A stretch of DNA of 12,890 nt from Nitrospira sp. (GTDB lineage: Bacteria > Nitrospirota > Nitrospiria > Nitrospirales > Nitrospiraceae): assembly GCA_025361385.1 (NCBI GenBank), contig JANYAJ010000462.1:1-12890 (forward strand), in the 5' to 3' direction. The notes beneath the pieces were generated by a model. That model saw only the letters and a program-made list of their open reading frames with translations. It made no database searches and was not told where the DNA came from. Positions 355 through 5,736 of the stretch are shown here, one piece after another. Positions within the stretch are counted from its first letter, which is position 1. Every line of letters starts with the position of its first letter. The position numbers and the translations under genes were made by a program.

Positions 355-555
355 ATGCAGGTCAAAATCAATGGCAAGCCAGAAGAGATTTCAGGAGGAA
401 CGGTCCTCGATCTTCTCCAGACCAAAAAAATCGAACCACAAATGGTTGCGGTTGAAGTCAACGACAGCGTGCTAGACCGGAATCTCCTCGCCACCACCAG
501 CCTGAACGAGGGCGACCGCGTCGAGTTCTTGTTCTACATGGGAGGTGGCCGGTGA
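355..555 (+). CDS. thiS: ThiS-like sulfur carrier protein (ubiquitin fold)
   Basis: This 66-residue protein of the ThiS/MoaD beta-grasp family carries sulfur as a C-terminal thiocarboxylate after adenylation by an E1-like enzyme. It starts MQVKINGKPEE, has the family-typical VAVEVND strand and ends FYMGGGR. The ATG at 355 is preceded by AGGAG (345-349) at a 5-base spacing. An in-frame GTG at 313 is less likely because it overlaps the probable promoter and adds a non-family N-terminus. The C-terminus has three glycines and an extra Arg66, whereas many ThiS proteins end exactly in Gly-Gly, so trimming may be needed. The stop overlaps the start of the cysteine synthase gene by four bases. It could serve thiamin synthesis, cysteine synthesis or both; with no thiG or other thi gene here, the cysteine role is favoured by context. 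Confidence 0.88.
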   Translation: MQVKINGKPEEISGGTVLDLLQTKKIEPQMVAVEVNDSVLDRNLLATTSLNEGDRVEFLFYMGGGR

Positions 556-1481
556 CGATGCCGCTGCACAAGGATATTACCGAACTCATCGGGCGGACTC
601 CTCTTGTCCGTCTGAACCGGCTTTCTCCGACCGGCGGAGCAACGATCTACGGAAAGGTCGAGTTCTTCAATCCTGGCGGGAGCATCAAGGACCGGATCTG
701 TCTCAACATGATCAACGAGGCGGAACGCCTGGGCCATTTGAAGCCGGGCGGCACGATCGTCGAACCCACGAGTGGGAACACCGGAATCGGACTGGCATTG
801 GTCGCAGCGGTCCGTGGATATAAGCTGATTCTCGTCATGCCGGAGAGCATGAGCATGGAGCGGGCCAGTCTCTTGTCCTCCTACGGCGCACAGCTCGTCT
901 TGACGCCGGCCTGGGAAGGAATGAAGGGCTCGATCCGCGAGGCGGAGAGCATCATCGCGCAAAATCCGTCGTACTATATGCCGGATCAGTTTTCCAATCC
1001 GGCGAATCCGGCGATGCACAAGAAGACGACGGCGATCGAGATTCTCGAATCGCTCGATGGAAAGATCGATGCCTTTGTCGCGGCGGTCGGTACGGGCGGC
1101 ACGATTACCGGATGCGGAGAATTGTTCAAGGAACGGAATCGCGACGTGAAGGTGATCGCCGTGGAACCGGCCGGGTCGCCGGTCTTGTCCGGCGGAGAGC
1201 CAGGGCCGCATAAGATTCAGGGTATCGGCGCAGGATTCGTTCCAAAAGTATTGAACCGTGCCGTCATCGATCGGGTGATGACCGTGACCGATGACGAAGC
1301 CTATCAAACGGCCAAGCAGCTTTCGAAGAAAGAAGGTCTCCTGGTGGGTATCTCTGCGGGAGCCAATGTGTTCGCCGCACAGAAAATCGCACAGGAACTG
1401 GGACCGGGCAAGAACGTGGTCACGATTCTCTGCGACACAGGCGAGCGGTACATCAGCATCGAGAAGTACTTTAATATTTAA
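552..1481 (+). CDS. cysK: Cysteine synthase (O-acetylserine/O-phosphoserine sulfhydrylase family, PLP-dependent)
   Basis: This 309-residue enzyme of the CysK/CysM fold-type II PLP family has full usual length. It makes cysteine from an activated serine and a sulfur donor. Visible landmarks are the PLP lysine K46 in PGGSIKDR, the substrate loop TSGNTG (73-78), the phosphate-binding GTGGT (180-184), GISAGA (266-271), whose Ser268 should contact the PLP ring nitrogen, and the C-terminal GERYISIEKYF. The GTG at 552 is chosen because GGAGG at 541-545 lies six bases upstream; an ATG at 558 is the alternative. It is translationally coupled to the carrier before it. That pairing recalls mycobacterial CysM, which takes sulfur from thiocarboxylated CysO rather than free sulfide. 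Whether this enzyme uses the carrier, sulfide or both cannot be told from sequence, so cysM would be an equally fair symbol. Confidence 0.92.
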   Translation: MTMPLHKDITELIGRTPLVRLNRLSPTGGATIYGKVEFFNPGGSIKDRICLNMINEAERLGHLKPGGTIVEPTSGNTGIGLALVAAVRGYKLILVMPESMSMERASLLSSYGAQLVLTPAWEGMKGSIREAESIIAQNPSYYMPDQFSNPANPAMHKKTTAIEILESLDGKIDAFVAAVGTGGTITGCGELFKERNRDVKVIAVEPAGSPVLSGGEPGPHKIQGIGAGFVPKVLNRAVIDRVMTVTDDEAYQTAKQLSKKEGLLVGISAGANVFAAQKIAQELGPGKNVVTILCDTGERYISIEKYFNI

Positions 1482-1603
1482 GGACGCTGAAAATGGCTTC
1501 CACCTTCGTTCTCGGCTCAAGAAAATCCTCAAGGTACCCCCGAGGGTACGCCTCCGGTTTTCTCTCGCCTGCGGCCTCGCTGGAAAACCATTTTGAGCAT
1601 CCT
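1481..1603. repeat. Palindromic intergenic repeat, family A copy 1
   Basis: This 123-bp element is bounded by AGGACGCTGAAAATGG at the left and CCATTTTGAGCATCCT at the right, which are inverted repeats of each other. In the middle lies a smaller palindrome, GTACCC (1534-1539) with GGGTAC (1544-1549). A clearly related copy occupies 5077-5197, and a shortened, inverted remnant occupies 6333-6389. The element begins at the last base of the cysteine synthase stop codon and fills most of the gap to the next gene, so it sits inside the operon. It could form a long hairpin in the transcript and act as a processing or stability element or a partial terminator. It encodes nothing visible. Confidence 0.8.
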
Positions 1604-1626
1604 TTTAGATTCACACACTGAACATC

Positions 1627-2439
1627 ATGGAATTTACAGAAGATCAGATAAGCCGCTACAGCCGCCATATCCTGCTACCGGAAGTCGGTGGCAAGGGGCA
1701 GAAGAAGATCGCCAAGGCCAAGATTCTCCTGGTCGGCGCGGGAGGCCTGGGGTCGCCTGCCGCCCTCTATTTGGCCGCAGCCGGAGTCGGCACGATCGGG
1801 CTCATCGATAGCGACGTCGTGGACCTGACCAACCTGCAACGTCAGATTCTCCATCACACGTCGGATGTCGGGCGCCCCAAGGTGCTCTCGGGCAAAGAGA
1901 AGATCCAGGGATTGAACCCGGACGTCCAGGTCTCGATGTATGAAGAGCGGCTCACGGCGGGCAATGCACTGAAGATCATCAGCGAGTACGACGTCGTGAT
2001 CGACGGGGTCGACAACTTTACTGCCAAGTTTCTGATCAACGACGCCTGTTTCTTTGCCGGAAAACCGTTGATCCATGGCGGCATCCTCCGCTTCGATGGA
2101 CGGGTGACGACCATTGTGCCGAAGCAGTCCGCCTGTTATCGTTGCGTGTTCAAGACGCCGCCGCCAGCCGGGCTGGTCGCCTCCTGCCAGGAAGCGGGCG
2201 TCATCGGCGTGTTAGCAGGCGTCATCGGCACGATTCAAGCGACAGAAGCGTTGAAACTCATCCTGGGCATCGGGCAGCCGCTCACCAACCGATTCCTGGA
2301 TTTTGATGCACGCAAAACGCAGTTCAGAGAGATCAAAGTCAAACGGAATCCCGATTGCGCCCTCTGTGGTGCGCACCCGACGATTACCGAATTGTTCGAC
2401 GACGGCGATCCTTTTGCCGGCTGTGCCGTCCGGCCATAA
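1627..2439 (+). CDS. moeB: E1-like sulfur-carrier adenylyltransferase (ThiF/MoeB/HesA family), paralog 1
   Basis: This 270-residue enzyme of the ThiF/MoeB family uses ATP to adenylate the C-terminal glycine of a sulfur carrier. The nucleotide-binding GAGGLGSP spans residues 37-44, followed by the acidic and arginine-bearing segment DSDVVDLTNLQRQ (61-73). Two cysteine pairs, C170/C173 and C244/C247, form the usual zinc site. C187 in the SCQEAG motif matches the conserved catalytic-region cysteine. There is no fused rhodanese domain, so the sulfur donor must be another protein or sulfide. The ATG at 1627 gives the family-typical start MEFTEDQISRYSRH but has no clear Shine-Dalgarno. It follows a 123-bp repeat and precedes the threonine synthase gene. 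It is closely related along its whole length to the enzyme at 4269-5072, so its carrier specificity cannot be assigned from sequence. Confidence 0.9.
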   Translation: MEFTEDQISRYSRHILLPEVGGKGQKKIAKAKILLVGAGGLGSPAALYLAAAGVGTIGLIDSDVVDLTNLQRQILHHTSDVGRPKVLSGKEKIQGLNPDVQVSMYEERLTAGNALKIISEYDVVIDGVDNFTAKFLINDACFFAGKPLIHGGILRFDGRVTTIVPKQSACYRCVFKTPPPAGLVASCQEAGVIGVLAGVIGTIQATEALKLILGIGQPLTNRFLDFDARKTQFREIKVKRNPDCALCGAHPTITELFDDGDPFAGCAVRP

Positions 2440-2466
2440 CCATTGACGTAGTGAGGTGGGGTCCCC

Positions 2467-3717
2467 ATGGCCAAAATGAAAGCGTTAGTCTGCCGCGAAT
2501 GCGGAAAAGAATATCCAACCAAGGCGATCCACGTCTGCGAGATGTGCTTCGGTCCCCTCGAAGTGAAGTACAACTACGAGGAAATCAAGAAGACCATCTC
2601 TCGGAAAAAGATCCAGGACGGGCCGCAGAGTATCTGGCGTTATGCCGATCTCCTGCCCGTTGAAGGACCGACCTTCCTCGGTCCGCATGCCGGAATGACC
2701 CCGCTGGTGCGCGCCAAGAATCTCGGCGCCTACCTCGGGTTGGACGAGCTCTATATTAAGAACGATACGGTGAATCATCCGACGCTCTCGTTCAAAGATC
2801 GCGTGGTCGCTGTCGCCATCACCAGGGCTCGCGAATTGGGATTTGAGACCATCGCCTGTGCCTCGACTGGCAATCTGGCGAATTCCGTCGCGGCCCATGC
2901 GGCGGCCGCGGGCATGCGCGCCTACGTGTTCATTCCCGCCGATCTGGAAGCCGCGAAAGTCCTGGGGAATTTGATCTATAAACCCAACGTGGTCGAGGTC
3001 GAAGGCAATTACGACGACGTCAACCGCCTCTGCAGCGAGATCGCTGGCGAATATCCCTGGGCCTTCGTGAATATCAACGTGCGTCCTTACTATGCGGAAG
3101 GGTCGAAGACGCTCGCCTATGAAACGGTGGAACAACTCGGCTGGCGCACGCCGGACCAAGTGGTCATCCCGATGGCGTCAGGCTCGCTCTTGACCAAGAT
3201 CTGGAAGGGCCTCCATGAAATGAAAACCTTAGGGCTCGTCGACGACGTGCGTACCAAGATCAACGGCGCGCAAGCCGAAGGTTGCTCCCCTATTTCGACG
3301 GCCTTCAAGGGGGGACGGGATTTCTTCAAACCGGTGAAGCCGAAGACCATCGCCAAGTCCCTGGCCATCGGCAACCCCGCCGACGGGTACTACGCCCTCA
3401 AAGCGACGGCCGAGAGCAAGGGCTCCATGGACATGGTGTCGGACGACGAAGTGGTGGAAGGGATCAAGCTGTTGGCGCAAACCGAGGGAATCTTCGCAGA
3501 AACAGCCGGCGGTGTGACCATCGGCGTGCTCCAGAAGCTGGTGAAACAAGGCACGATCAAGAAGGGCGACGTGACCGTCGCCTATATCACCGGCAACGGC
3601 TTGAAAACGCAGGAAGCGGTGATCGATGCGGTCGGCAAGCCTCACCGCATTCAGCCGAGTCTCGCAAGCTTTGAGAAAACCTTTAAGATGGGAAAGAACG
3701 GTGGTGGTGACGCATGA
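2467..3717 (+). CDS. thrC: Threonine synthase (PLP-dependent, with N-terminal zinc ribbon)
   Basis: This 416-residue fold-type II PLP enzyme resembles threonine synthase, which converts O-phosphohomoserine to threonine. An N-terminal zinc ribbon is formed by C9/C12 and C24/C27. The PLP lysine is K110 in LSFKDR, the phosphate-gripping loop is STGNLANS (133-140), and a late glycine-rich motif ITGNGLK lies at 374-380. The start at 2467 has a good ribosome site (GAGGTGGG, 2453-2460). The stop overlaps the next gene's ATG (ATGA at 3714), so the enzyme and the MoaD-like carrier are translationally coupled. That placement among carrier, NIL and E1 genes is unusual for a plain threonine synthase. By inference the enzyme could use a carrier thiocarboxylate on phosphohomoserine to give homocysteine, or be an ordinary threonine synthase that shares the operon. 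Sequence alone supports only the family assignment. Confidence 0.88.
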   Translation: MAKMKALVCRECGKEYPTKAIHVCEMCFGPLEVKYNYEEIKKTISRKKIQDGPQSIWRYADLLPVEGPTFLGPHAGMTPLVRAKNLGAYLGLDELYIKNDTVNHPTLSFKDRVVAVAITRARELGFETIACASTGNLANSVAAHAAAAGMRAYVFIPADLEAAKVLGNLIYKPNVVEVEGNYDDVNRLCSEIAGEYPWAFVNINVRPYYAEGSKTLAYETVEQLGWRTPDQVVIPMASGSLLTKIWKGLHEMKTLGLVDDVRTKINGAQAEGCSPISTAFKGGRDFFKPVKPKTIAKSLAIGNPADGYYALKATAESKGSMDMVSDDEVVEGIKLLAQTEGIFAETAGGVTIGVLQKLVKQGTIKKGDVTVAYITGNGLKTQEAVIDAVGKPHRIQPSLASFEKTFKMGKNGGGDA

Positions 3718-4001
3718 TTAAAGTTCGCATTCCAACTCCGCTCCGTCCCCTCACGAAGGGACAAGGCGAGGTCGACGCACAGGCCACGAGTATCACTGAG
3801 ATGATCGACACCTTGAATACCGCGCATCCCGGGATCAAGGATCGTCTTTGCGACGACACGGGTGAGCTTCGCCGTTTCGTGAACATTTACGTCAACGAGG
3901 AAGACATCCGATTCCTCAAGGGCAAAGAGACCTCGCTCAAAGACGGCGACGAAGTCTCGATTGTGCCCGCCATTGCGGGAGGCTCATCATGCCAAGCATG
4001 A
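3714..4001 (+). CDS. MoaD/CysO-like sulfur carrier protein with tail beyond the diglycine
   Basis: This 95-residue protein of the MoaD/ThiS superfamily resembles mycobacterial CysO. Landmarks are IPTPLRPLTKGQ near residues 6-17, RRFVNIYVNEEDIRF at 53-67, LKDGDEVSIVPAIAGG at 75-90, then a tail SSCQA (91-95). In this family the diglycine normally ends the protein so that it can be adenylated and thiocarboxylated, so the tail must be removed first; the JAMM protease gene at the end of the operon is the obvious candidate. The ATG at 3714 overlaps the threonine synthase stop. The 3' end overlaps the NIL gene by 13 bases, and the GGA-GGC codons for the diglycine form that gene's Shine-Dalgarno. The CysO-like features favour amino acid sulfur transfer over molybdopterin synthesis, and no moaE or other moa gene is visible here. 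Confidence 0.88.
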   Translation: MIKVRIPTPLRPLTKGQGEVDAQATSITEMIDTLNTAHPGIKDRLCDDTGELRRFVNIYVNEEDIRFLKGKETSLKDGDEVSIVPAIAGGSSCQA

Positions 4002-4231
4002 AAGTGCATGTGCGGTTTCCTGAAGATAAAATCAAAGAGCCCGTCATCTATCAGATCGGCCACGAATTCAAGGTGGTCACCAACGTTCGGCGAGCGGACG
4101 TCCGTGAAACCACCGGGTGGATGGATCTCGAGCTGACAGGAGAGAGCGCGGAAATCGAGCGGGCGGTCGCTGGCCTTCGCAAGAAGGGCGTCATCGTCGA
4201 CCCGATCGAATTGGATGTCGTGGAGGGGTAA
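3989..4231 (+). CDS. NIL-domain protein
   Basis: This small 80-residue protein consists of little more than a NIL domain, the ACT-like fold also found at the C-terminus of the methionine transporter ATPase MetN and fused to ferredoxin in a methanogen homocysteine-synthesis protein. Typical parts are the KVHVRFPEDKIKEPVIYQI start, the central hydrophobic strand WMDLELTG (44-51), and the last strand GVIVDPIELDVV. The ATG at 3989 lies six bases after GGAGG (3978-3982); ATG 3998 is an alternative. It overlaps the MoaD-like carrier gene and is therefore probably made in step with it. Standing alone between a carrier and an E1 enzyme, it may bind an amino acid ligand or act as a partner or chaperone in sulfur transfer. 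That role is inference; the domain call is firm. Confidence 0.82.
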   Translation: MPSMKVHVRFPEDKIKEPVIYQIGHEFKVVTNVRRADVRETTGWMDLELTGESAEIERAVAGLRKKGVIVDPIELDVVEG

Positions 4232-4268
4232 GAGGTCCAGCCTCTACCCACAAGCCGAAAGCAACGCG

Positions 4269-5072
4269 ATGGAACTTACCGAACAACAGATTCAACGATA
4301 CAGCCGTCAGATTATTCTCAGCGAAGTCGGCGGCAAGGGCCAGATGAAGTTGAGCAAGGCGAAGGTCTTGCTCATCGGCGCCGGCGGACTCGGCTCGCCG
4401 GCAGGGCTCTATCTTGCTGCCGCCGGTGTCGGCACCATCGGCCTGGTCGATGGCGATGTCGTCGATCTCTCGAATTTGCAGCGGCAAATCATGCATTCCA
4501 CTGCGACAGTCGGCATGCCGAAAGTGGAATCGGGCCGTAAGACCTTGTCGGCGATCAACCCTGAGATTACGATTAAGACCTATCACCAGAACGTCGACAG
4601 CGACAATATTCTGGCGCTGGTGTCCGAGTATGACATCGTGCTGGACGGGTCCGACAACTTTTCAACCAGATTTCTCGTGAACGACGCTTGCTTCTTTGCC
4701 AAGAAGACGCTGATCTCCGCCAGCATGTTCCGGTTCGAAGGCCAGCTGACGACGATCAAACCCCATGCCGGCTATCCCTGCTATCGCTGTCTCTATCCAG
4801 AGCCACCGCCGGCGGGATTGGTCCCGAACTGCCAAGAGGCCGGTGTCTTGGGAGTCCTCGCCGGAACCATGGGTATTCTTCAAGCATCGGAAGCGATCAA
4901 AGAAATTCTCGGCATCGGGGAAACCATGGCCGATCGCCTGATGATCTACGATGCCCTCGAAATGAAGTTCAGGAAGGTCCGCCGTCCCAAGGACCCGGCC
5001 TGCCCGCTCTGCGGCGAGAATCCGAAGATCAAAGATCTGAGTATGGACTATGTGGTCAGCTGCACCATCTAG
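4269..5072 (+). CDS. moeB: E1-like sulfur-carrier adenylyltransferase (ThiF/MoeB/HesA family), paralog 2
   Basis: This 267-residue second member of the ThiF/MoeB family has all the functional residues: GAGGLGSP (37-44), DGDVVDLSNLQRQ (61-73), zinc cysteines C171/C174 and C245/C248, and the conserved C188 in NCQEAG. It is nearly identical to paralog 1 around the nucleotide site and diverges mainly at the C-terminus, where it ends SMDYVVSCTI. The ATG at 4269 is chosen because MELTEQQIQRYSRQ aligns with the start of paralog 1. A GTG at 4215 would add 18 residues with no family match and would overlap the NIL gene. No Shine-Dalgarno is evident for 4269; the nearest purine-rich run is around 4222-4236. 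It probably activates the MoaD/CysO-like carrier 270 bases upstream, a pairing based on proximity only. Confidence 0.9.
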   Translation: MELTEQQIQRYSRQIILSEVGGKGQMKLSKAKVLLIGAGGLGSPAGLYLAAAGVGTIGLVDGDVVDLSNLQRQIMHSTATVGMPKVESGRKTLSAINPEITIKTYHQNVDSDNILALVSEYDIVLDGSDNFSTRFLVNDACFFAKKTLISASMFRFEGQLTTIKPHAGYPCYRCLYPEPPPAGLVPNCQEAGVLGVLAGTMGILQASEAIKEILGIGETMADRLMIYDALEMKFRKVRRPKDPACPLCGENPKIKDLSMDYVVSCTI

Positions 5073-5076
5073 CCTC

Positions 5077-5197
5077 AGGATGCTGAAAACGCCCGCCAGC
5101 TTTGTTCTCGCATCGTTCGGATCCTCAACGTACCCTGAGGGTACGCCTCGGACCCTCTCTCGCTGCGGCCTCGCTGGACAGACGTTTTGAGCATCCT
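5077..5197. repeat. Palindromic intergenic repeat, family A copy 2
   Basis: This 121-bp element is related to 1481-1603. The ends AGGATGCTGAAAACG and CGTTTTGAGCATCCT are inverted repeats, and a 7-bp perfect palindrome (CGTACCC, TGA loop, GGGTACG) lies at 5129-5145. Next to the shared AAAA/TTTT, copy 1 has TGG paired with CCA whereas this copy has CG paired with CG, so pairing is kept while sequence differs. It lies five bases after the second E1 gene and just upstream of the JAMM protease gene. As an RNA it could form an extended hairpin that modulates read-through or stability between the two. Confidence 0.8.
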
Positions 5198-5220
5198 GCG
5201 TAAGATTGGACTCAACTAGC

Positions 5221-5736
5221 GTGGCTGATCTCGTCATTCCTCAAACAATCCTCGACGACCTGGTGGCCCATGCCAGGGCACTTGATCCTTACGAATGCTG
5301 TGGTCTGCTGGCAGGAACCAACGGAGCCGTCACCCATATTTATCGGATCAAAAATATCGTGGCGAGCGAGGGAGCTGAAAAATTATCTTCCTTCGACCCG
5401 GCAAAGGCCGCGCACCTGGAACGGCTCTCCCCGGCCGAACGAGCCGAAATTGCCTTTGTGATGGATATGCAGGATTTTTCTGCGGCAAAGAAGGATATTC
5501 GAAACAAAGGGCTCGACCTGCAAGTGGTCTACCACTCTCATCCTCACGACCCGGCGCGCCCCTCCATCACCGACATCAAGATTGCCACCGACTACGAAGA
5601 AATCTGGCCGAAGATCAACCTGCCAATCCCCGCCTATCTGATTCTCTCCCTTATGGAGAAATCGAAGCCCGATATACGTTGTTACTGGATCAAGGGTGGG
5701 ACCGTCTCAGCGGCGCACATCACGACCGCGAATTAA
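5221..5736 (+). CDS. JAMM/MPN+ zinc metalloprotease (Mov34/M67 family, Mec-like)
   Basis: This protein of about 171 residues has a complete JAMM motif. With numbering from the GTG at 5221, E25 lies in YECCGLLAG, and H105, H107, S115 and D118 form HxHx7Sx2D in the segment YHSHPHDPARPSITD. Such proteases cut the peptide bond after a carrier's diglycine: mycobacterial Mec releases cysteine from CysO-Cys, and Wolinella HcyD trims the tail of HcyS. The operon context and the tailed carriers fit that job. The GTG start places the first strand where Mec-like proteins begin; a TTG at 5206 is the alternative, and neither has a clear Shine-Dalgarno. The stretch between the catalytic Glu and HSH is about 80 residues, longer than the spacing I remember for small bacterial JAMM proteins, owing to a helical segment near residues 60-95. 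It is the last gene of the operon. Confidence 0.88.
   Translation: MADLVIPQTILDDLVAHARALDPYECCGLLAGTNGAVTHIYRIKNIVASEGAEKLSSFDPAKAAHLERLSPAERAEIAFVMDMQDFSAAKKDIRNKGLDLQVVYHSHPHDPARPSITDIKIATDYEEIWPKINLPIPAYLILSLMEKSKPDIRCYWIKGGTVSAAHITTAN

Follow-up and report, generated by a model that had tools for sequence, protein, structure and literature searches.

The operon and its eight genes

We analyzed the entire contig JANYAJ010000462.1 (G000:C13; 12,890 nucleotides, here called the window) of Nitrospira sp. assembly GCA_025361385.1, a genome of 3.05 Mb that is 82% complete and 5.7% contaminated. Within the first 5.7 kb of the window, positions 355 to 5736 of the forward strand hold eight genes, which encode, in order, a ThiS-like carrier (carrier 1), a cysteine synthase (CysK), an E1-type adenylyltransferase (E1a), a threonine synthase homolog (thrC2), a second small carrier (carrier 2), a NIL-domain protein, a second adenylyltransferase (E1b), and a JAMM metalloprotease. 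An initial annotation of the window had proposed this content and order, and reading frames and family assignments confirm both (Table 1). The operon probably encodes two protein-thiocarboxylate routes with shared machinery, one leading to cysteine and one to homocysteine; we infer all of the chemistry, and the assignment of E1s to carriers, from sequence.

Table 1. Features of the operon and its surroundings in the window
Feature	Positions	Strand	Basis
Carrier 1, ThiS-like, 66 aa	355..555	+	TIGR01683 59.3 bits, above cutoff; PF02597 45.4 bits
Carrier 1 masked diglycine: C-terminal GGG and one further residue (R)	541..552	+	sequence
CysK, O-acetylserine sulfhydrylase type	552..1481	+	TIGR01139 456.6 bits, above cutoff
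E1a, MoeB/ThiF-type adenylyltransferase	1627..2439	+	PF00899 293.8 bits
thrC2, MetM-like threonine synthase homolog, N-terminal cysteine motif	2467..3717	+	TIGR00260 295.4 bits, above cutoff
Carrier 2, MoaD/SAMP1-like (MetO-like), 95 aa	3714..4001	+	PF02597 65.5 bits
Carrier 2 tail, five residues beyond diglycine	3984..3998	+	sequence
NIL-domain protein, 80 aa	3989..4231	+	PF09383 54.7 bits
E1b, MoeB/ThiF-type adenylyltransferase	4269..5072	+	PF00899 272.5 bits
JAMM metalloprotease, GTG start (TTG 5206 alternative)	5221..5736	+	PF14464 64.3 bits
Repeat, copy 1	1481-1603		REP/MITE-like
Repeat, copy 2	5077-5197		REP/MITE-like

The closest solved structure is ThiS (2k5p) for carrier 1 and MoeB (1jw9) for E1b, and the top PDB matches of CysK are cysteine synthases. 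Carrier 2 matches PDB chains 4n6e_B and 3dwg_C, both at about 1e-21, and scores 56.8 against the SAMP1 profile, below its cutoff of 60. PF00899 is the only domain in E1a and E1b, and a rhodanese domain was found in neither. The genes overlap where the carrier 1 stop codon meets the GTG start of cysK, where thrC2 runs into carrier 2, and where the carrier 2 tail runs into the start of the NIL gene.

Conservation of the gene order

The comparison drew on 61 genomes, namely, the window's own and 60 relatives (41 of the 61 with a completeness of 90% or more and a contamination of 5% or less), and on a phylum sample of 148 genomes, 133 of which are of that quality. Set A comprises 81 loci: the window, 40 further Nitrospirales loci (one per genome, picked out of the 61 genomes in favor of long contigs), and 40 loci from elsewhere in the phylum, picked for family spread out of the 81 thrC2-positive genomes outside the order. 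Set B comes from a scan of named genomes; it holds the best 80 of 585 relatives and is no census, a scope that applies to every set B result below.

The eight-gene order is identical in all 40 further Nitrospirales loci, or 41 of 41 with the window, which rejects a chance cluster or the artifact of a single assembly and bears out the proposal of two modules, each with a pyridoxal phosphate-dependent fold-type II enzyme, a carrier, and an E1. Departures are a frameshifted cysK (L118), a carrier 1 gene 222 nucleotides upstream of cysK (L129), and single reading frames that join carrier 1 and CysK (L131 and L132), NIL and E1b (L111), or carrier 2 and NIL (L107). Elsewhere in the phylum, both modules occur in 17 of the 40 loci and the ThrC-type module alone in 23. 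These 23 loci have the order thrC2-carrier 2-NIL, together with the housekeeping threonine synthase gene thrC1 in 20, an E1 in 9, and a JAMM in 8.

Most or all of the operon is held by the Nitrospira, Nitrospiraceae, Manganitrophaceae, and Leptospirillum loci of set B. That set also contains thrC2, mostly with carrier 2, in Cyanobacteria, Omnitrophota, Nitrospinota, Chloroflexota, NC10, Aquificota, Deltaproteobacteria, and one metagenome-assembled genome (MAG) of the Actinomycetes. Both modules lie near each other in two Omnitrophota MAGs (L237 and L249), and NC10 (L244) and Deltaproteobacteria (L293) have these parts in looser assemblies, so that the two-module layout is not limited to one phylum. 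Among the loci examined, the strict eight-gene order was found in Nitrospirota-like loci only.

Motifs that active enzymes of these families should carry are conserved as well. SFKDR is present in 81 of 81 thrC2 sequences in set A, and GS[VI]KDR and TSGNTG are present in 59 and 58 of 60 CysK sequences, respectively. GxGGLG occurs in all 67 E1a-class sequences (58 E1a and nine E1s from single-module loci) and in all 57 E1b sequences; a second CxxC-G zinc motif is found in 63 and 48 of them, respectively. All 78 JAMM match rows, which come from 61 loci, keep the motif HxH...S..D; in 17 of the loci the match is split in two.

Some set B loci arrange these genes differently. Near its thrC2, the NC10 locus L244 has three carrier-like, two CysK, and two NIL matches with one E1 and one JAMM, a possible multicarrier cluster. 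The order cysK-thrC2-carrier 2-E1-second CysK-like gene (225 to 237 bits) recurs in L234, L273, L276, and L282, of which three are on contigs titled Nitrospinota, Nitrospina, or Nitrospinae; the second CysK-like protein of L234 has a C-terminal extension. L220, titled Nitrospinota, holds the full operon with a thrC2 that is 82% identical to that of the window and is probably misbinned or mislabeled.

Module 2 and homocysteine

On gene content, thrC2 is spare for threonine synthesis: at least two ThrC matches are present in 53 of the 61 genomes, and the second is a shorter protein encoded elsewhere, the housekeeping thrC1. A quick tree of a 149-row subsample resolves thrC2 and thrC1 as two clades, and the branch between them has a length of 2.66 changes per column and a support of 100; its thrC1 rows are from Nitrospirota only, and the long Nonomuraea row is unsurely placed. 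Carrier 2 adjoins thrC2 in all 81 set A loci, and the pair recurs in Nonomuraea and, in set B, in cyanobacteria. The Nonomuraea homolog is 53% identical to thrC2, and the very next gene encodes a carrier-2-like protein that ends in GG, the arrangement that PMC12172450 cites for metM-metO of Streptomyces. We pair the ThrC homolog with carrier 2 because the two are adjacent in other phyla as well. The presence of thrC1 in 20 of the 23 single-module loci is expected if both enzymes use O-phosphohomoserine. Module 2 thus arranged looks like the MetM/MetO route, in which O-phosphohomoserine would be converted to homocysteine.

The usual homocysteine enzymes appear to be mostly missing from the relatives, a survey in which cystathionine beta-synthase was not searched for. 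The PF01053 family includes both synthases and lyases of transsulfuration. Among the matches listed, 3 of the 61 genomes score at least 378 bits and none of the others scores above 44.4 bits, so that MetB/C/Y/Z-type enzymes are clear in those three only; the window's own genome is among the 58 with no clear PF01053 protein, and its 82% completeness makes its own gene absences weak evidence. A MetX-type protein is present in 1 of the 61 genomes, itself PF01053 positive; MetA (PF04204) was not searched for. The DUF39/HcyBio route to homocysteine was rejected for these genomes (0 of 61). Since PF01053 is mostly missing, sulfur probably enters cysteine and homocysteine separately. Across the 148 phylum genomes, PF01053 is listed in 31 of 126 with thrC2 and in 14 of 22 without it (Fisher P = 0.00065), which is an association and not an exclusion, and the test ignores kinship.

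MetX-type and MetY-type genes adjoin in L211 (G060:C26), a genome that keeps the whole operon, and both routes can therefore coexist. Four Aquificota contigs in set B (L231, L236, L239, and L283, one of them titled Aquifex aeolicus) hold thrC2, with carrier 2 beside it in L239 and L283.

The NIL protein has one PDB match, the NIL domain of the methionine importer MetN (2qsw, E = 0.009), and probably senses methionine. NIL/ferredoxin proteins take part in the DUF39 route (PMC5764234), so NIL may instead have a chemical role.

Module 1 and cysteine

At an E value of at most 1e-40, the operon CysK is the sole CysK/CysM match in its own genome. Among the 40 fetched genomes, the same holds for 35; extra matches occur in G004, G032, G039, and G042, and G031, whose gene is frameshifted, has none at that threshold. 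In-frame carrier1::CysK fusions are present in 6 of the 80 fetched loci (L131, L132, L149, L152, L157, and L185) and in the Omnitrophota MAG L249, giving seven genomes in two phyla. At the junction, a carrier ending in FMGGG or YMGGG reads into CysK without a stop. Two protein searches scored on the carrier portion only gave 9 and 11 clusters with such a fusion, 20 in total. Four of these are on contigs of 0.27 to 1.59 Mb and two are partial; the named ones are called cysteine synthase A. One cluster, P0010, corresponds to the protein of L157. Loci L223 and L131 lie on a single contig.

A structural model of one such fusion (18 sequences) has a mean predicted local distance difference test (pLDDT) score of 77.8, with the carrier and the synthase each folded, and a pLDDT below 50 at residues 60 to 77, the MGGG junction. 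This low confidence fits an exposed linker and is no proof of cleavage. A fold search with the model returned cysteine synthases only among the best 50 matches.

The fusions are our main evidence for pairing carrier 1 with CysK. PDB entry 3dwg, which we take to be mycobacterial CysO, is among the closest solved relatives of carrier 2 and not of carrier 1; carrier similarity alone would therefore not yield the pairing in the initial annotation, which fusions and adjacency support. A role of carrier 1 as the thiamin carrier ThiS was rejected: L208 and L209 have a separate ThiS-type carrier next to ThiG, and the window's own genome encodes one on a different contig (L206).

Masked carrier ends

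Carrier 1 continues for at least one residue past MGGG in 58 of 58 set A sequences and in 17 of 17 from set B; the identity of the added residue or residues is highly variable and their presence constant. Carrier 2 runs past GG in 65 of the 81 set A loci and ends exactly at GG in 16, and it is in frame with NIL in L107, L147 (Pfam-checked), L237, L243, and L293. In cyanobacteria, by contrast, 29 of 30 carrier 2 sequences among the best 80 of 585 relatives stop at GG, and the 31 loci from that group yielded no JAMM, E1, NIL, carrier 1, or CysK; the remaining set B carrier 2 sequences end at GG in 12 of 45.

Other Nitrospirales carriers are masked as well. Among 20 ThiS-type and 20 MoaD-type rows, picked by match size among the matches listed, ThiS extends at least one residue past GGG in 20 of 20 genomes and MoaD extends past GG in 20 of 20, with 148 to 156 extra residues in 12 and tails of 1 to 13 in 8. 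In the window's own genome, MoaD is fused to MoaE (L207, the one such fusion in which Pfam confirmed MoaE), and the ThiS-type carrier of L206 has a 16-residue tail past GGG.

We consider it unlikely that the tails are neutral by-products of overlapping starts or of MAG gene order, needing no trimming, with a JAMM that only frees amino acids from carriers. Such an origin would agree with the overlaps at both carrier ends in the window and with the 16 set A carrier 2 genes that stop exactly at GG. Against it, the carrier 1 tail is never missing despite its variable residue, and it persists even where the nearest in-frame cysK ATG lies at or after the stop, as in 24 of the 29 carrier 1-cysK pairs with such an ATG. 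The masking of ThiS and MoaD also argues against it, as do the fusions, which presumably could not work uncut.

E1s, JAMM, and a possible shared hub

The window's own genome has two PF00899 E1s, both encoded in the operon. Of the 40 fetched genomes, 39 have exactly two at an E value of at most 1e-25, and the exception, G059, has one more (107 bits). In a quick E1 tree, E1a (58 rows) and E1b (57 rows) are clades that run parallel through the phylum, and the nine E1s of single-module loci make up another group, which sits next to E1b on a very short branch (0.01). This topology, which by itself assigns no E1 to a client, suggests two old paralogs kept side by side for separate clients. JAMM proteins were searched for in 20 chosen genomes, 7 of them Nitrospirales. 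The operon JAMM is the only one above the cutoff in six of these seven; the seventh, G045, has none. G045 is a relative of the fusion-bearing genomes and has no CysE match either, only another CysK.

Given the masked carriers, and E1s and a JAMM that in most of the Nitrospirales genomes searched have no strong counterpart outside the operon, four carriers may depend on the operon for maturation and activation. We give roughly even chances to the wider proposal that in Nitrospirales carriers 1 and 2, ThiS, and MoaD are all made as blocked precursors, whether by tails or by client fusions (MoaD::MoaE, carrier1::CysK, and carrier2::NIL), and that one operon supplies both the unblocking JAMM and the two loading E1s. 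There are precedents: DRJAMM cleaves MoaD-MoaE and leaves a C-terminal glycine (PMC8832034), MoaX is cut after Gly82 by a protease that was not identified there (PMC4326299), and the single E1 MoeZR loads MoaD1, MoaD2, and CysO (PMC3227635).

Two proposed thiocarboxylate routes and their rivals

In the route that we favor, JAMM would trim carriers 1 and 2, or in some lineages carrier::client fusions, and expose the C-terminal glycine, which E1a and E1b would adenylate before sulfide or a persulfide donor turns it into a thiocarboxylate. Carrier 1 would then pass its sulfur to CysK acting on O-acetylserine, giving cysteine, and carrier 2 would pass its sulfur to the MetM-like thrC2 acting on O-phosphohomoserine, giving homocysteine; where a product is still joined to its carrier, JAMM would release it. 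The initial annotation had likewise suggested that thiocarboxylate sulfur goes to both cysteine and a homoserine-derived product. The fixed gene order, the spare and separate thrC2, the masked carrier ends, the carrier1::CysK fusions, the adjacency of thrC2 and carrier 2, and the near absence of the usual homocysteine enzymes favor this; CysE in 50 of the 61 genomes and a CysK of the O-acetylserine type leave room for a sulfide-dependent cysteine route, an outcome that the annotation itself had named as contrary.

Several observations weigh against two thiocarboxylate routes with shared machinery. CysE is above its cutoff in those 50 genomes, the window's own included, and as CysE is common and CysK is of the ordinary O-acetylserine type, cysteine may come from free sulfide. 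Among the matches listed, 31 of the 126 thrC2-bearing genomes also hold a PF01053 enzyme, and 8 of the 22 genomes without thrC2 have neither. The cyanobacterial (Microcystis) homolog, 51.6% identical to MetM, behaved as a threonine synthase and deaminase, without raising methionine (PMC12172450). Outside the order, several of the genomes searched contain two or three JAMMs above the cutoff, and G045, which belongs to the order and is 96% complete, lacks JAMM, thrC2, and any E1 at an E value of at most 1e-25. The sharing of one protease by both modules, also part of the initial annotation, is borne out by the single JAMM in the operon, but in five two-module loci JAMM is not close by; the genomes concerned (G061, G070, G088, G164, and G182) encode one elsewhere.

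The free-sulfide observations raise a rather doubtful alternative in which only module 2 is a thiocarboxylate route, CysK uses O-acetylserine with free sulfide, and carrier 1 and E1a work toward a different thiolated product, lying next to cysK for coregulation. It would account for CysE and the ordinary CysK, and carrier 1 is ThiS-like by sequence, yet a separate ThiS is present and the carrier1::CysK fusions, in seven genomes of two phyla and in 20 protein clusters, speak against it. The Microcystis homolog and the TIGR00260 score above the cutoff could instead mean that module 2 is mainly a second threonine synthase or a threonine deaminase, with a different role for carrier 2. We hold this to be very unlikely, as most genomes have the housekeeping thrC1, the carrier gene stays beside thrC2 across phyla, and most genomes would be left without any known homocysteine route.

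Comparison with known systems

The two-route operon resembles several systems in part. In Wolinella, HcyS, HcyF, and HcyD reportedly combine a C-terminally extended carrier, an E1, and a JAMM-type protease with MetY for homocysteine synthesis, a system that PMC5764234 cites; MetY (PF01053) is absent from most genomes here, and a ThrC homolog stands in its place. Operons of a carrier, an E1, a JAB protease, and a cysteine synthase were predicted in 2006 (Iyer 2006, types 4c and 4d; PMC1779556). Like these and like CysO/CysM/Mec with MoeZR of mycobacteria (PMC1779556, PMC3227635), the operon keeps a ubiquitin-like carrier, an E1, a JAMM/JAB protease, and a cysteine synthase together. However, the type 4c E1 carries a rhodanese domain (PMC1779556), which E1a and E1b lack, and mycobacterial CysM uses O-phosphoserine (PMC3227635), whereas the CysK here is of the O-acetylserine type by family and structures, with CysE encoded elsewhere. 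Carrier 1, moreover, resembles ThiS and has a tail, and the operon continues with a second module. With neither a CysM-type enzyme nor a rhodanese E1, the operon is, by its gene content, not filed as a CysO/CysM/Mec member.

Homocysteine synthesis by a ThrC homolog and a carrier was reported in 2024 for MetM/MetO of Streptomyces (Hasebe 2024, cited in PMC12172450), a precedent that the initial annotation, which had named the CysO and Hcy systems, left out. Module 2 shares with it a ThrC homolog that is distinct from and spare to the housekeeping ThrC and is followed directly by the gene of a small carrier (PMC12172450). The operon differs in adding NIL, two E1s, JAMM, and a cysteine module, and its carrier 2 is often tailed. 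An Rfam search of the window returned nothing at the gathering threshold, so no counterpart was found here of the S-adenosylmethionine riboswitch upstream of Streptomyces metM (PMC12172450).

As in JAMM-processed precursors, the carriers have residues past the diglycine and the protease has the HxH...S..D motif. In MoaD-MoaE of the DRJAMM system and in MoaX, a carrier fused to its partner is released after a glycine (PMC8832034, PMC4326299); similar cleavage is predicted here, with a cysteine synthase, or NIL in the case of carrier 2, as the fusion partner instead. Each module thus resembles a known system, and their combination, the CysK fusions, and the hub proposal appear new in the searchable literature. 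That literature, which includes few subscription papers, yielded no published description of the two-module operon, of a carrier-cysteine synthase or carrier-NIL fusion, or of masked Nitrospira carriers.

The window also contains an approximately 123-bp, imperfectly palindromic repeat resembling repetitive extragenic palindromic (REP) sequences or miniature inverted-repeat transposable elements (MITEs). Its two copies, 77% identical, occupy the gaps between cysK and E1a and between E1b and JAMM, and they gave 128 blastn hits, some mutually overlapping, in 36 of the sequences compared.

Implications for sulfur metabolism

In most Nitrospira-type genomes examined, a clear textbook homocysteine enzyme is lacking, and the operon offers a testable route. 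Homocysteine synthesis is an open gap in Aquifex aeolicus according to a published survey (PMC5764234), to which the Aquificota thrC2 is a possible answer. If the two-route proposal is true, both sulfur amino acids would receive their sulfur through protein thiocarboxylates, and the E1s and the protease would probably be common to thiamin and molybdenum cofactor synthesis; should the hub proposal hold as well, cysteine, methionine, thiamin, and the molybdenum cofactor would all pass through one operon. The carrier1::CysK fusions predict that cleavage occurs after the glycines, and they can be compared with ubiquitin precursors. Ubiquitin arises as a fusion to a ribosomal protein and is released by a deubiquitinase, and carrier1::CysK would be a bacterial counterpart of that fusion.

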